This document shows, in pieces, positions 31,014 through 35,610 of a stretch of DNA of 64,000 nt (position 1 is the first letter of the stretch; every line of letters starts with the position of its first letter). Below the pieces are notes generated by a model that was not told where the DNA came from, ran no database searches, and saw nothing but the letters and a program-made list of their open reading frames with translations. A program made the position numbers and the translations under genes. The stretch is from an uncultured beta proteobacterium (GTDB taxonomy: Bacteria > Pseudomonadota > Gammaproteobacteria > Burkholderiales > Burkholderiaceae_B): NCBI GenBank assembly GCA_903894155.1, contig CAITPF010000010.1:1-64000 (forward strand), in the 5' to 3' direction.

Positions 31014-31985
31014 TCAGGCCTTCCAGACCTCGCCGTACAGACGCAGCCAGTTCGTGCCGATGATCTTTTCGATGCGCGAAGCCGACCAGCCGGCCGACTC
31101 CATCGCTGCGGTCAGGTTGGGGAACTCACCGATCGTGCGGATGCCTTCCGGGTTGAGGATGGTGCCGAACTCGGTCAGCTTGCGATAGCGGCCCTTGTCC
31201 ATCGTGATCCAGTCGAAGAAGCCCTTGTCATAGCCCTGGGTGAAGTCGGTGCCGATCCCCACGCTGTCTTCACCCACGAGGTTGATCACGTAGTCGAAGG
31301 CCTCTACGTAATCGTGCACCGTGGATTCGATGCCGCGGCGCAGGAAAGGAGGGAACATCGTCACGCCGACAAACCCGCCGTGTTCGACGATGAACTTCAG
31401 CTCGTCGTCGGATTTGTTGCGCGGGTGCTGCTTGAGCCCGGCCGGCAGCGTGTGCGAGTAGCAGACGGGCTTGGTCGACGCCAGGATCGTTTCCTTTGAC
31501 GTCAGCGGGCCGACGTGCGAGAGATCGACCAGGACGCCGACGCGGTTCATCTCGGCGACCAGTTCGTGGCCGTACCCGGAAAGGCCGCTGTCGCGCTCGT
31601 AGCAACCCGTGCCGACCAGGTTTTGCGTGTTGTAGCAGAGCTGCATGATGCGCACGCCCATGTCGGCAAACGCTTCGACGTGGCCCAGGTTGTCTTCGCA
31701 CGCGTAGGAATTCTGGAACCCGAGGATGATGCCTGTTTTGCCCTCGGCCTTGGCACGCCGTATGTCGGCCACGCCGCGCACCTGCAGGGCAAGATCCGCG
31801 TTCTCGCGGATGAGCTGCTTCATATTCACGATGTTGTCGACAGTGGCCGCGAATCCCTCCCAGATCGAGACGGTGCAGTTGGCGGCTGTCAGACCCCCGC
31901 GGTGCATGTCCTCGAGGATGGACTTGTCCCACTTGGAGATGATCAGGCCGTCGATGACAATGCTTTGCGAATGAATGCTGCTCAT
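31014..31985 (-). CDS. membrane dipeptidase (peptidase M19 family)
   Basis: IILGFQNSYACEDNLGHVEAFADMGVRIMQLCYNTQNLVGTG, VLVDLSHVGPLTSKE, VGIGTDFTQGY. Confidence 0.92.
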   Translation of the reverse strand: MSSIHSQSIVIDGLIISKWDKSILEDMHRGGLTAANCTVSIWEGFAATVDNIVNMKQLIRENADLALQVRGVADIRRAKAEGKTGIILGFQNSYACEDNLGHVEAFADMGVRIMQLCYNTQNLVGTGCYERDSGLSGYGHELVAEMNRVGVLVDLSHVGPLTSKETILASTKPVCYSHTLPAGLKQHPRNKSDDELKFIVEHGGFVGVTMFPPFLRRGIESTVHDYVEAFDYVINLVGEDSVGIGTDFTQGYDKGFFDWITMDKGRYRKLTEFGTILNPEGIRTIGEFPNLTAAMESAGWSASRIEKIIGTNWLRLYGEVWKA

Positions 31986-32000: not shown

Positions 32001-33194
32001 TTAGTAGACATTCTTGAAATACACGCCGAAGATTGCTTTGTTGTAGCTGTAGAAACTGATGTTCGAGTTGTTGTTCTGCACAACATAACCGATCTCGGGC
32101 CGCAGGCCCATGATGTAGAAATCGCGCTTGGTCAGCGTGGCGGAATACACGACGCCGGAGTCGCTGCGGACCGAGCCCCAGATCGGGTCGACATCCCAGT
32201 AATTGCGCTGGATCACGGTTGCGCGCGCATTGAGTTGCAAGTTGGTCGAATCCTCGGCGACTTGCACGCCGAGCGACGCGTACATGCCATACGAGCTGTA
32301 GGCCGTGATCGCCGCCGTGGTGCGATCCGCGCCGATTTCGACGTTGGTCGACAGGTTGCGCATGATGCTGTAGTTGTAGCCAAGAGCGCCCTGGACCTGC
32401 GTGCCGTTGAGGTACATATAGTTCGGGAAGTCGAGCGCCGCCACCTTGGCGAACACCATAAACGAGTTCTGCTCCGGCTGATTGAACACCATGCGCGTCG
32501 ACACGTAAGGTGCGTCGTACAACAGGACGTTGTTATAAAACATGAATTCGTTGCCGACCCGGATATCCTTGTAATCGAAATCCTGCCAGCGCTTGATGAT
32601 GCTGGTGTCGAACGTCTGGCGGTTGAACATCATGGCGTCGGGAAAGGTGACTGTCGCCACGCTGGCCGATGCGAAGAGCCCGGAGCCGGGCTGGATTTCG
32701 CGCTCGGCTTCGGCCACGAAGGCCACGCCCGTCTGCACGTCGGTCGGCAGCGACGGCTGGTAGTAGAGCGTCTGACCGAAGATGTTGAACGCGCGCAGCG
32801 ACGTGATCTGGCCGGGGTTGGTGTCCTGATAGGCGCCGATGTAGATCTTGACCGTTTGGCGTTTCTGGATATCGCTCAGATACCACTCGATCTTGTCGCG
32901 CACCGTGATCGGGATCGGCTTTTGCAGGATGTCGATGAACTGGACTTTCGCTTCGGCTAGCCGGCCGGCGACGAAGAGGCTGCGCGCAAGCTCAAGCTGC
33001 ACCCGGACCGATTTGGTCTCGTTGAAGAGCTTCGTGAAGATGATGATGGCCTGGTTGATGTCGCGATCCATCATGATCACGCCGGCCTCGAAGCGCTTCT
33101 GAAACTCTTGCGGTGATTGCGCGTTTGTCGTGCCCCAATAAAAAATGGCTGCCAGGATCAGCAGCCATCGGGCGGGCGCCGCCAGGCTTGTCAC
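32001..33194 (-). CDS. Slam-like (surface lipoprotein assembly modifier, DUF560/T11SS) outer-membrane protein with TPR N-terminus
   Basis: GTG start overlapping the upstream stop (GTGA); signal peptide; TPR region ...LELARSLFVAGRLAEAKVQFIDILQKPIPITVRDKIEWYLSDIQKRQ; beta-barrel-like C-terminus ending aromatic. Confidence 0.72.
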   Translation of the reverse strand: MTSLAAPARWLLILAAIFYWGTTNAQSPQEFQKRFEAGVIMMDRDINQAIIIFTKLFNETKSVRVQLELARSLFVAGRLAEAKVQFIDILQKPIPITVRDKIEWYLSDIQKRQTVKIYIGAYQDTNPGQITSLRAFNIFGQTLYYQPSLPTDVQTGVAFVAEAEREIQPGSGLFASASVATVTFPDAMMFNRQTFDTSIIKRWQDFDYKDIRVGNEFMFYNNVLLYDAPYVSTRMVFNQPEQNSFMVFAKVAALDFPNYMYLNGTQVQGALGYNYSIMRNLSTNVEIGADRTTAAITAYSSYGMYASLGVQVAEDSTNLQLNARATVIQRNYWDVDPIWGSVRSDSGVVYSATLTKRDFYIMGLRPEIGYVVQNNNSNISFYSYNKAIFGVYFKNVY

Positions 33195-34138
33195 TGAGCC
33201 TTGCCGCCGAAGGCGCCTCTGAGAGACTCCACGCCATTGCCCCTGAGGCCGAATATGCCGCCGATTTCCGAGGCGTTCGGGCCGTAGAACTGACCGCCGG
33301 CCTGGCCCGTCAGATTGTTGTTGTTGGTCTGGGCCGCGCCCGCGAACTGCGTCCCGCTGATGGTCAGCAGACCGTTGGCGTTGAGTTGCGGCGCAGCGAC
33401 TGTCGAAGTGACGTTCTTGGCGACGGCCGAATTGGCGAGAACCGTGTTGCTGGTGCCCCACTGCACAGTCAGCGCGCCGAAATCGACGTTGGCTGTCATG
33501 TTGGCCGTCGCGAGGGCCGGGACGCCGATGGGGTTTACGTAGATGGCTGAGGCGGTGCCAGTAAAGGTCGCCTGGCCGGCGAGCGGCACGACGGTCGATG
33601 GGTTGCCGTATGAGATGCCGCCCTGAGTGCCACCGACGCCCAGGCCCGTGATCCAGACGCCGTAGGACTGATAGCTCCAGCCGTTGGCGATCGGATCAGC
33701 GAGCATCGCCGTGTTTCTGTTGTTGCTCGACGTTGCGCCGATAAAACCGGGCATTGCGCCCATGCCTGCGATGGTGTCGCCGTTGGACTTGTCGAAGGTG
33801 ACGTTAAAGCCCAGCGACGACTGCAACGTCAGCAGGGTCAGGTTTGCCGAGTTGTCGTAGACGCCGACAAAGTTGGCCCCGCCCGTGCTCAGGAAGCCGC
33901 TGCCAGAGATCTGAATGTTGCCGTCAGAGCCGGCCGCATAGGTGACCTGGTGCGATACACCGGTCGCGTTGATTGTTTGCCCCGGGGTGACCGCCTGCCA
34001 CGTGTTGAACGGCGTTGCGGCCGACGGCACGGAGTACGAGTTGGGGCTGCCGCCGCTGGTCGAGCACCCGGCGATGCCGACGAGCGCCGCGACACCGGCG
34101 ATAACGGGCAGGCGCGTCAGAAATTCAGACTTGTTCAT
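33191..34138 (-). CDS. TbpB-like surface lipoprotein (transferrin-binding-protein-like beta-barrel)
   Basis: Lipobox ALVGIAGC; C-terminal GGQFYGPNASEIGGIFGLRG...GAFGGK; start set to MNKSEF. Confidence 0.75.
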   Translation of the reverse strand: MNKSEFLTRLPVIAGVAALVGIAGCSTSGGSPNSYSVPSAATPFNTWQAVTPGQTINATGVSHQVTYAAGSDGNIQISGSGFLSTGGANFVGVYDNSANLTLLTLQSSLGFNVTFDKSNGDTIAGMGAMPGFIGATSSNNRNTAMLADPIANGWSYQSYGVWITGLGVGGTQGGISYGNPSTVVPLAGQATFTGTASAIYVNPIGVPALATANMTANVDFGALTVQWGTSNTVLANSAVAKNVTSTVAAPQLNANGLLTISGTQFAGAAQTNNNNLTGQAGGQFYGPNASEIGGIFGLRGNGVESLRGAFGGKAQ

Positions 34139-34344: not shown

Positions 34345-35610
34345 CTACCCCAGGGCTGCAACCGGCTCCGGCAGGGCAATATGGTGATGCTTGCTGAACT
34401 GGTAATCGTGGAAGATATGCTCTGCGCTCAGGGTCCGGTAGGTGCCGTCGGGCAGGGGCAACGTCGTGTCTTTGAGCCTGTAGGCGGTGTGCCCGCAGGT
34501 CCAGCAGTTGAAGTTGCTCATGTGCGTGCACAGGCAGGTCTTGTCCATGACGGCGATCTTCTGGCCCCGCGGTCGCAATTCCACCTCGCGGTTGTAGGCG
34601 ACGATGTATGAGCAGCTTCCCTTGCCGTCCAGCAGGTAGCCATAGGATTCGCAGCCCGGACGGATCCCGGCGCCAATGGCGGGCGAGCTTTTCAGCATGC
34701 GCATCGGGTATCCGGTGGGCGAGATCGTATTGACCTCGATGTCCTGCTCGCTGGCCTTGTAGTATTCCTGCTTGACGTCATCTGGCAAGCCACATTCGTC
34801 GGAGACGGTGAACCGGGTCGCCACCTGCACGGCGGCCGCGCCGTTCTCGAGAAACCCGACCGCATCGGTGCCCGTGAAGATCCCCCCTGCCGCGACGATC
34901 GGGATGTCGAGCAGCTCGGCCTTGAGGTAGCGAGCGACTTCGCCGACGATCGTGGTCAAGTCATACTTGGCCCAATCCATCCCGAAACCGAGGTGGCCGC
35001 CCGCGAGCGGGCCCTCGACGACGACGTAGTCCGGCAGCCGGTTCAGGCGCGCGTTTTTGCGCAGGAAGATTTGCAGTGCGCGCACCGACGACACGATGAT
35101 GCCCAGCTTGGCATCGCGAAAGCGCGGATGATCCTCAATCATGGCGAACGAGCCGAGGTGCAATCCCGCGCTGAGCGTGATGCCGTCGATGCCCGCGTCA
35201 AGCGCCGACGCCATCCGCACGCGCAGTGTCTCGCGCGGCGCGTTCATCGTGAGCTTTTCCATGCAGTTCACCAGGATCAGGCCGCCGCCCCGCTTGGCCT
35301 CCATGGTCGAGGCCACGTGCATGCGGGTGGCCTCCGCCAGCCGCCCCAGGTCGAACTGGACGATGGACTTATCCGTCTTGGGGATGTTGAGCTTGTAGAA
35401 CTTTGTCTTGTCCTTGACGTAGGACGTGTTGAACCGCTTGTCGGACACATCCTCGATCATGGCGTCGGAGATGTGTCCGATGCCGCCCAGCCGGGCCGCT
35501 TCGAGCGCAAGCTCGGCGGTCGAGATATTGACGCCCATCCCGCCGATCATGATCGGAACGAGTTCTTTATTACCCAGGCTTAGCCTGAAATCGTCGACGC
35601 ACTTCATCAA
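34345..35610 (-). CDS. nitronate monooxygenase family protein
   Basis: PIMIGGMGVNISTAELALEAARLGGIGHIS, VVEGPLAGGHLGF, VAAGGIFTGTDAVGFLENGAAAVQVATRF. Confidence 0.88.
   Translation of the reverse strand: MMKCVDDFRLSLGNKELVPIMIGGMGVNISTAELALEAARLGGIGHISDAMIEDVSDKRFNTSYVKDKTKFYKLNIPKTDKSIVQFDLGRLAEATRMHVASTMEAKRGGGLILVNCMEKLTMNAPRETLRVRMASALDAGIDGITLSAGLHLGSFAMIEDHPRFRDAKLGIIVSSVRALQIFLRKNARLNRLPDYVVVEGPLAGGHLGFGMDWAKYDLTTIVGEVARYLKAELLDIPIVAAGGIFTGTDAVGFLENGAAAVQVATRFTVSDECGLPDDVKQEYYKASEQDIEVNTISPTGYPMRMLKSSPAIGAGIRPGCESYGYLLDGKGSCSYIVAYNREVELRPRGQKIAVMDKTCLCTHMSNFNCWTCGHTAYRLKDTTLPLPDGTYRTLSAEHIFHDYQFSKHHHIALPEPVAALG

Follow-up and report, generated by a model that had tools for sequence, protein, structure and literature searches.

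A type XI (Slam) secretion gene pair with a probable built-in attenuator in a freshwater-type betaproteobacterium

Two overlapping genes in a 64,000-nucleotide stretch of DNA (the window) from a freshwater-type betaproteobacterium raise two questions: whether they encode a type XI (Slam) secretion pair, and how the amounts of cargo and exporter are balanced, a matter not addressed in the type XI papers open to search. The original prediction described a lipoprotein gene followed by a GTGA-overlapping outer-membrane protein gene and proposed a candidate type XI pair. We found both open reading frames (ORFs) as predicted, on the minus strand, which had been omitted. The cargo, a predicted surface lipoprotein of 315 aa, is encoded at 33191..34138, and the Slam (T11SS) outer-membrane protein of 397 aa, with its conserved ...FKNVY C-terminus, at 32001..33194. 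The GTG start of Slam overlaps the TGA stop of the cargo gene at 33191..33194. The same 4-bp overlap occurs in L004 with a different start codon (TTGA), and the cargo-Slam spacing ranges from −4 to +29 nt in the relatives. Both proteins exceed the curated Pfam cut-offs (TbpB_B_D, E 1.7e-11; SlipAM, E 1.1e-8), so that these matches are not due to chance. The pair and its gene order are kept in the relatives, and at every clade locus with a visible junction the gene immediately upstream of Slam encodes a TbpB-barrel lipoprotein. Judged from sequence, the two genes encode a Slam (type XI secretion) pair whose cargo is predicted to be surface-displayed, and the Slam-type identification was right. 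By analogy with known systems, the outer-membrane partner probably puts the lipoprotein on the cell surface.

The best Pfam match of the 32001..33194 product was SlipAM (DUF560; PF04575; residues 295–394; 35.5 bits, cut-off 22) and not an unrelated porin or TPR family. This match covers only the C-terminal third of the window protein; in the closest relative, L004, nearly the full SlipAM model was matched (36.7 bits, 7–278 of 288). The AlphaFold (AF2) model of Slam (pLDDT 87.9) starts with a signal helix, which is followed by five helices and then by a barrel with ∼14 long strands. From this model we assigned residues 28–112 (32859..33113, minus strand) to a short helical (TPR-like) periplasmic domain and, using Foldseek also, residues 113–397 (32004..32858, minus strand) to an outer-membrane beta-barrel, in agreement with the barrel-like C-terminus that had been predicted. 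As to the predicted TPR region, five helices are present in the model, VRDKIEWYLSDIQKR being the last of them ahead of the barrel, but TPR_Slam (PF24575) scored 17.8 bits, below its cut-off of 35.2. A PDB sequence search with Slam gave chance matches only. The Slam of L004 (L004:5728-7116) has an extra proline-rich segment of ∼65 residues between the signal peptide and the TPR region that is absent in the window.

The cargo begins with MNKSEFLTRLPVIAGVAALVGIAGC followed by STSGG, where a lipobox with Cys25 was read by eye. The predicted type II signal peptide (34064..34138, minus strand) carries the lipobox VGIAGC at residues 20–25 with a predicted acylated Cys25, which is invariant across 12 relatives, so the lipobox of the original prediction holds. 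PF01298 (TbpB_B_D) matched residues 185–313 at 45.2 bits (cut-off 26), and a second search placed the domain identically. The NCBIfam model NF041636 (slam_lipo) gave 34 bits against a cut-off of 80; by these profile scores the cargo is outside the narrow slam_lipo equivalog, yet within the barrel family. In the AF2 model, built on 12 relatives (pLDDT 85.6), residues 1–38 are disordered and a beta-rich effector/pedestal ('handle') region spans residues ∼41–180 (33599..34018, minus strand; boundary approximate). A TbpB-type 8-stranded barrel (33200..33586, minus strand), placed by the PF01298 match and the modelled strands, follows, and the protein terminates in FYGPNASEIGGIFGLRGNGVESLRGAFGGKAQ. 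The top PDB matches of the model were the TbpB C-lobe, the LbpB N-lobe, hemophilins from four genera, NHBA and fHbp, which together with PF01298 bears out the predicted C-terminal TbpB/fHbp-type segment. This barrel is the probable Slam-recognised domain.

The window cargo has 4.8% charged residues and one His, which is non-conserved. Asp, Glu, Lys and Arg together make up 4.4–6.1% of the mature cargos in most of the clade (14.9% in L020), compared with 10–32% in complete Neisseriaceae cargos and 17–23% in the neighbouring window proteins. Most clade cargos have no His and no Cys besides that of the lipobox. As these residues are absent or non-conserved, binding of haem or metal through His/Cys appears unlikely, and a haem/metal carrier was dropped as the leading idea. 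More probably, the cargo serves at the cell surface as a binding or adhesive protein and is not a haem or metal carrier; a role in adhesion or glycan binding is our guess.

GTDB genomes supplied four of the related loci, one from a Polynucleobacter isolate and three from MAGs, and all four hosts are betaproteobacteria. Whole-genome searches found the pair in 4 of the 32 genus genomes and 6 of the 270 genomes of the family, which for the window is probably Alcaligenaceae, and 6 of the 150 genomes in a sample of the genus Polynucleobacter have it, three already known included. In a maximum-likelihood tree, a 100/100 branch sets off the clade's nine Slams; the clade adjoins other Burkholderiales Slams whose neighbouring genes encode TbpB barrels (96/90) and is apart from the Neisseriaceae-type and FecR-associated groups. 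This deep Burkholderiales clade, which is separate from the host-associated group, has so far been met in MAGs and Polynucleobacter. The original prediction had placed Slam systems mainly in host-associated Neisseria/Moraxella-type bacteria; however, the family has been published as widespread among Proteobacteria of water and soil as well (PMC8406197), and finding it in a free-living host is therefore no surprise in itself. PMC12282271 likewise records the family from water and soil, and Polynucleobacter is not named in the main text of either paper, as far as searched.

The pair lies between the gene of a nitronate-monooxygenase-like protein (NMO; 34345..35610, minus strand; PF03060) and that of an M19 membrane dipeptidase (31014..31985, minus strand; PF01244), 15 bp past the Slam stop. 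Genome G002 of the same genus has the same synteny: after NMO come the M19 dipeptidase and then the same regulator, and a frameshifted Slam end lies between NMO and M19. This remnant (L119:2541-2800) reads GLRSEIGYVMQNNYSNLGFHFYN and LYNKAVVGIFLKNVY (stop), the C-terminal end of Slam. Therefore, the pair was once at this site and decayed there, and loss explains part of the patchy occurrence. Recent acquisition as the sole cause is ruled out by the remnant; transfer may have contributed elsewhere, and a search for plasmid-borne spread gave no match among 72,556 plasmids. We rejected an operon of the pair with the M19 dipeptidase, because NMO and M19 adjoin in G002 without an intact pair and the neighbours differ in every other locus. 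The dipeptidase is probably outside the system, and the NMO-like protein is outside it. As predicted, a TonB-dependent receptor was not recognised next to the pair, nor among the ORFs at ∼18–50 kb (by reading and Pfam on selected ORFs).

A promoter/terminator scan flagged, 25 nt inside the Slam gene, an 11-bp stem that is followed by a U-tract. This terminator-like hairpin (GATGGCTGCTGATCCTGGCAGCCAT; 33137..33169, minus strand) lies inside the signal-peptide codons for RWLLILAAIF, has a fold energy of −15.4 kcal/mol (z −3.5), and shows the features of an intrinsic terminator, namely a G+C-rich stem, a short loop and a U-tract. It is present in 9 of the 11 clade loci (the window, L004, L005, L006, L007, L017, L020, L116 and L117), of which L116 and L117 are out-of-sample loci obtained after the hypothesis had been stated. 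L018 has no qualifying hairpin, and L019 has only a 6-bp stem with a poor U-tract. When the Slam starts were resampled with synonymous codons, equal or better hairpins arose in 0.05–0.65% of the trials at seven loci (p 0.0005–0.0065; window, p 0.0015), and the same null gave p 0.012 for L116 and 0.0005 for L117. No stretch in the rest of these Slam genes equals the signal-peptide hairpin. The frequency of such hairpins in the window is 0.047 per kb per strand, and they are absent from all 69 control gene junctions with gaps of up to 40 nt; the clade differs from these controls with a Fisher value of 2e-10, where the rows are not independent and the control comes from another family.

All eight distinct sequences share a geometry of an 8-bp stem, a 6-nt loop and then four invariant U's. 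Four of the eight stem pairs change on both sides (U-A/A-U/G-C, G-C/C-G, U-A/C-G and U-A/C-G), and the covariation score is 0.504 compared with 0.00–0.13 for slid partners; the 100% pairing is partly by construction, because the rows were picked as hairpins, and the rows are related. We consider it unlikely that this is an ordinary Slam pair whose hairpin is a functionless by-product of the signal-peptide codons. The signal peptides of the three closest loci do share the residues RWLL.LAAIF, so that some of the DNA conservation at the hairpin comes from protein homology, and two clade members do without it; however, synonymous resampling of the same proteins rarely yields an equally good hairpin, the stem has compensatory double changes, and the same element recurs after cargo copies that are followed by another gene, or by none.

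The hairpins in question lie behind second cargo genes ahead of a small outer-membrane protein gene (L007 and L118) and, in a weaker form, downstream of an L006 cargo copy that no gene follows. Their location points to the cargo's own terminator. Relative to the Slam start, the stem begins within 3 nt in L005–L007 and 21–26 nt downstream in the window, L004, L017 and L020; relative to the cargo stop, the hairpin lies 19–28 nt behind it in the Polynucleobacter-type loci. In Neisseriaceae too, an intergenic terminator-like hairpin occurs in ∼9 of 11 cargo-to-Slam gaps, the cargo status being judged partly by eye, against 17 of 53 control gaps of 41–100 nt (Fisher 0.005), although the two genes there may be separate units.

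Taken together, we consider it probable that this is a type XI (Slam) pair with built-in attenuation. The likeliest role for the hairpin, as read from its sequence and placement, is that of a cargo terminator doubling as an attenuator, with Slam made by read-through; it probably serves to make much more cargo than exporter. Its position points to the next gene's signal peptide having been written over the cargo terminator. On the family's model, the lipoprotein would pass through Sec, be acylated at Cys25 and reach the outer membrane; there the Slam barrel would recognise the C-terminal TbpB-type barrel and move the cargo, lipid-anchored, to the outer surface. Most transcripts would end behind the cargo gene, at the hairpin and U-tract; the Slam gene would be transcribed by read-through and Slam translated by coupling, its start overlapping the cargo stop, and the outcome would be a high cargo-to-exporter ratio. 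We give about even chances to the broader proposition that across the clade the cargo terminator is also the Slam signal-peptide code, a single stretch of DNA that is constrained at the levels of RNA structure and protein alike and determines the cargo-to-exporter ratio, and that it forms a module placeable before other outer-membrane genes (a PagP-like gene in L007 and L118).

Structure near a start codon often limits translation initiation, and the stem begins at most 3 nt from the Slam start in L005–L007. The hairpin might accordingly act on translation, hiding the Slam start until a ribosome coming from the cargo gene unfolds the stem, or on the stability of the mRNA, instead of on transcription. 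The invariance of the four U's straight after the stem, the distance of 21–26 nt past the start in the window, L004, L017 and L020, and the stand-alone copy in L006 make this improbable compared with attenuation by a terminator.

It is similarly doubtful that the cargo and Slam genes are separate transcription units, with a Slam promoter inside the cargo gene and the hairpin as a plain terminator. Separate promoters are known for nilB and nilC (PMC9100927), and Neisseriaceae pairs with gaps of 60–80 nt could be separate units. In the window, however, the gene overlap leaves no intergenic promoter space, the Slam transcript would contain the terminator anyway, and a weak scan placed promoter-like sites near the pair only upstream of the cargo or in NMO. 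It is very improbable that the barrel belongs to a generic TPR-porin of the BcsC/PelB kind and that the lipoprotein remains in the periplasm, for although the nearest solved folds found by Foldseek were BcsC, OmpG and PelB, with no Slam among the matches listed, SlipAM scored over its cut-off, the gene is tightly paired with that of a TbpB-barrel lipoprotein, and the tree joins the clade to other Burkholderiales Slams with TbpB cargos.

The pair resembles the Slam1/Slam2-TbpB/fHbp type of Neisseria, Moraxella and Haemophilus in its DUF560 barrel, helical N-terminal domain, lipidated TbpB-barrel cargo and adjacent genes. It differs in having ∼16–20% identity to the sampled classical-type Slams, a single handle-barrel cargo, a short TPR domain, overlapping genes, the embedded hairpin, different bacteria and no recognised TonB receptor nearby. 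Unlike TbpB, the cargo has one barrel and not two lobes, and no TbpA-type receptor was recognised in ∼18–50 kb. The hemophilins/HphA (T11SS-secreted haemophores) likewise have a single handle and a single barrel (structural matches 8gmm, 7re4 and 6om5), whereas the window cargo is predicted to be lipidated and, with its non-conserved His and few charges, appears to have no conserved haem ligand. The C-terminal barrel fold is shared with fHbp and the C-terminal domain of NHBA (GNA2132; 6cuj, TMt 0.71–0.73); the N-terminal part is different. Clostridial ABC operons offer a parallel, with a terminator that separates the gene of an abundant binding protein from that of its translocator; experiments there support internal terminators in this position as a control of SBP:translocator stoichiometry (PMC9045158). 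The terminator there is intergenic, whereas the terminator-like hairpin of the window's type XI operon lies inside the translocator's signal-peptide code.

The system is of a known kind; for its regulatory layout, and for internal-terminator stoichiometry in type XI systems, no report was found in the open-access literature searched, most subscription papers being outside that search. The embedded terminator-like element lifts the pair above a routine family member; the original prediction had missed it, along with the near-charge-free cargo and the Slam remnant in a relative. If true, an intrinsic terminator over signal-peptide code would be a clear example of dual coding. Published type XI work deals mostly with host-associated cargos. 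The clade provides a small system from free-living freshwater bacteria, culturable in the case of Polynucleobacter, that has a near-charge-free cargo and a candidate regulatory element.

Some Polynucleobacter-type genomes have two to three paralogous cargo lipoproteins round one Slam (L006:5081-8124 and L007:5036-12075), and one L007 paralogue is interrupted by a stop. A predicted outer-membrane protein of ∼165 aa follows the Slam or second cargo gene in such loci (L005:4128-4634, L007:8130-8615, L116:979-1491 on the minus strand, L117:2639-3175 and L118:1768-2235) and is absent in the window. It is at most weakly PagP-like (sub-threshold), two of the proteins have no Pfam match, and it is a possible third component. 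The window's own genome (C355) also encodes a 638-aa TPR and barrel protein with a sub-threshold SlipAM match of 16 bits (L002:1456-3372); no cargo was seen beside it on a short contig piece, and in the tree it groups with a FecR-linked SlipAM branch, apart from the window's clade. SlipAM proteins of that separate branch (L034, L035, L040, L041, L042, L043, L044, L046 and L021) lie upstream of or near genes with an apparent FecR-like N-terminal segment (AAGRVDFAFGKVQATT type; label assigned by eye), and this group is a possible further type XI cargo class.
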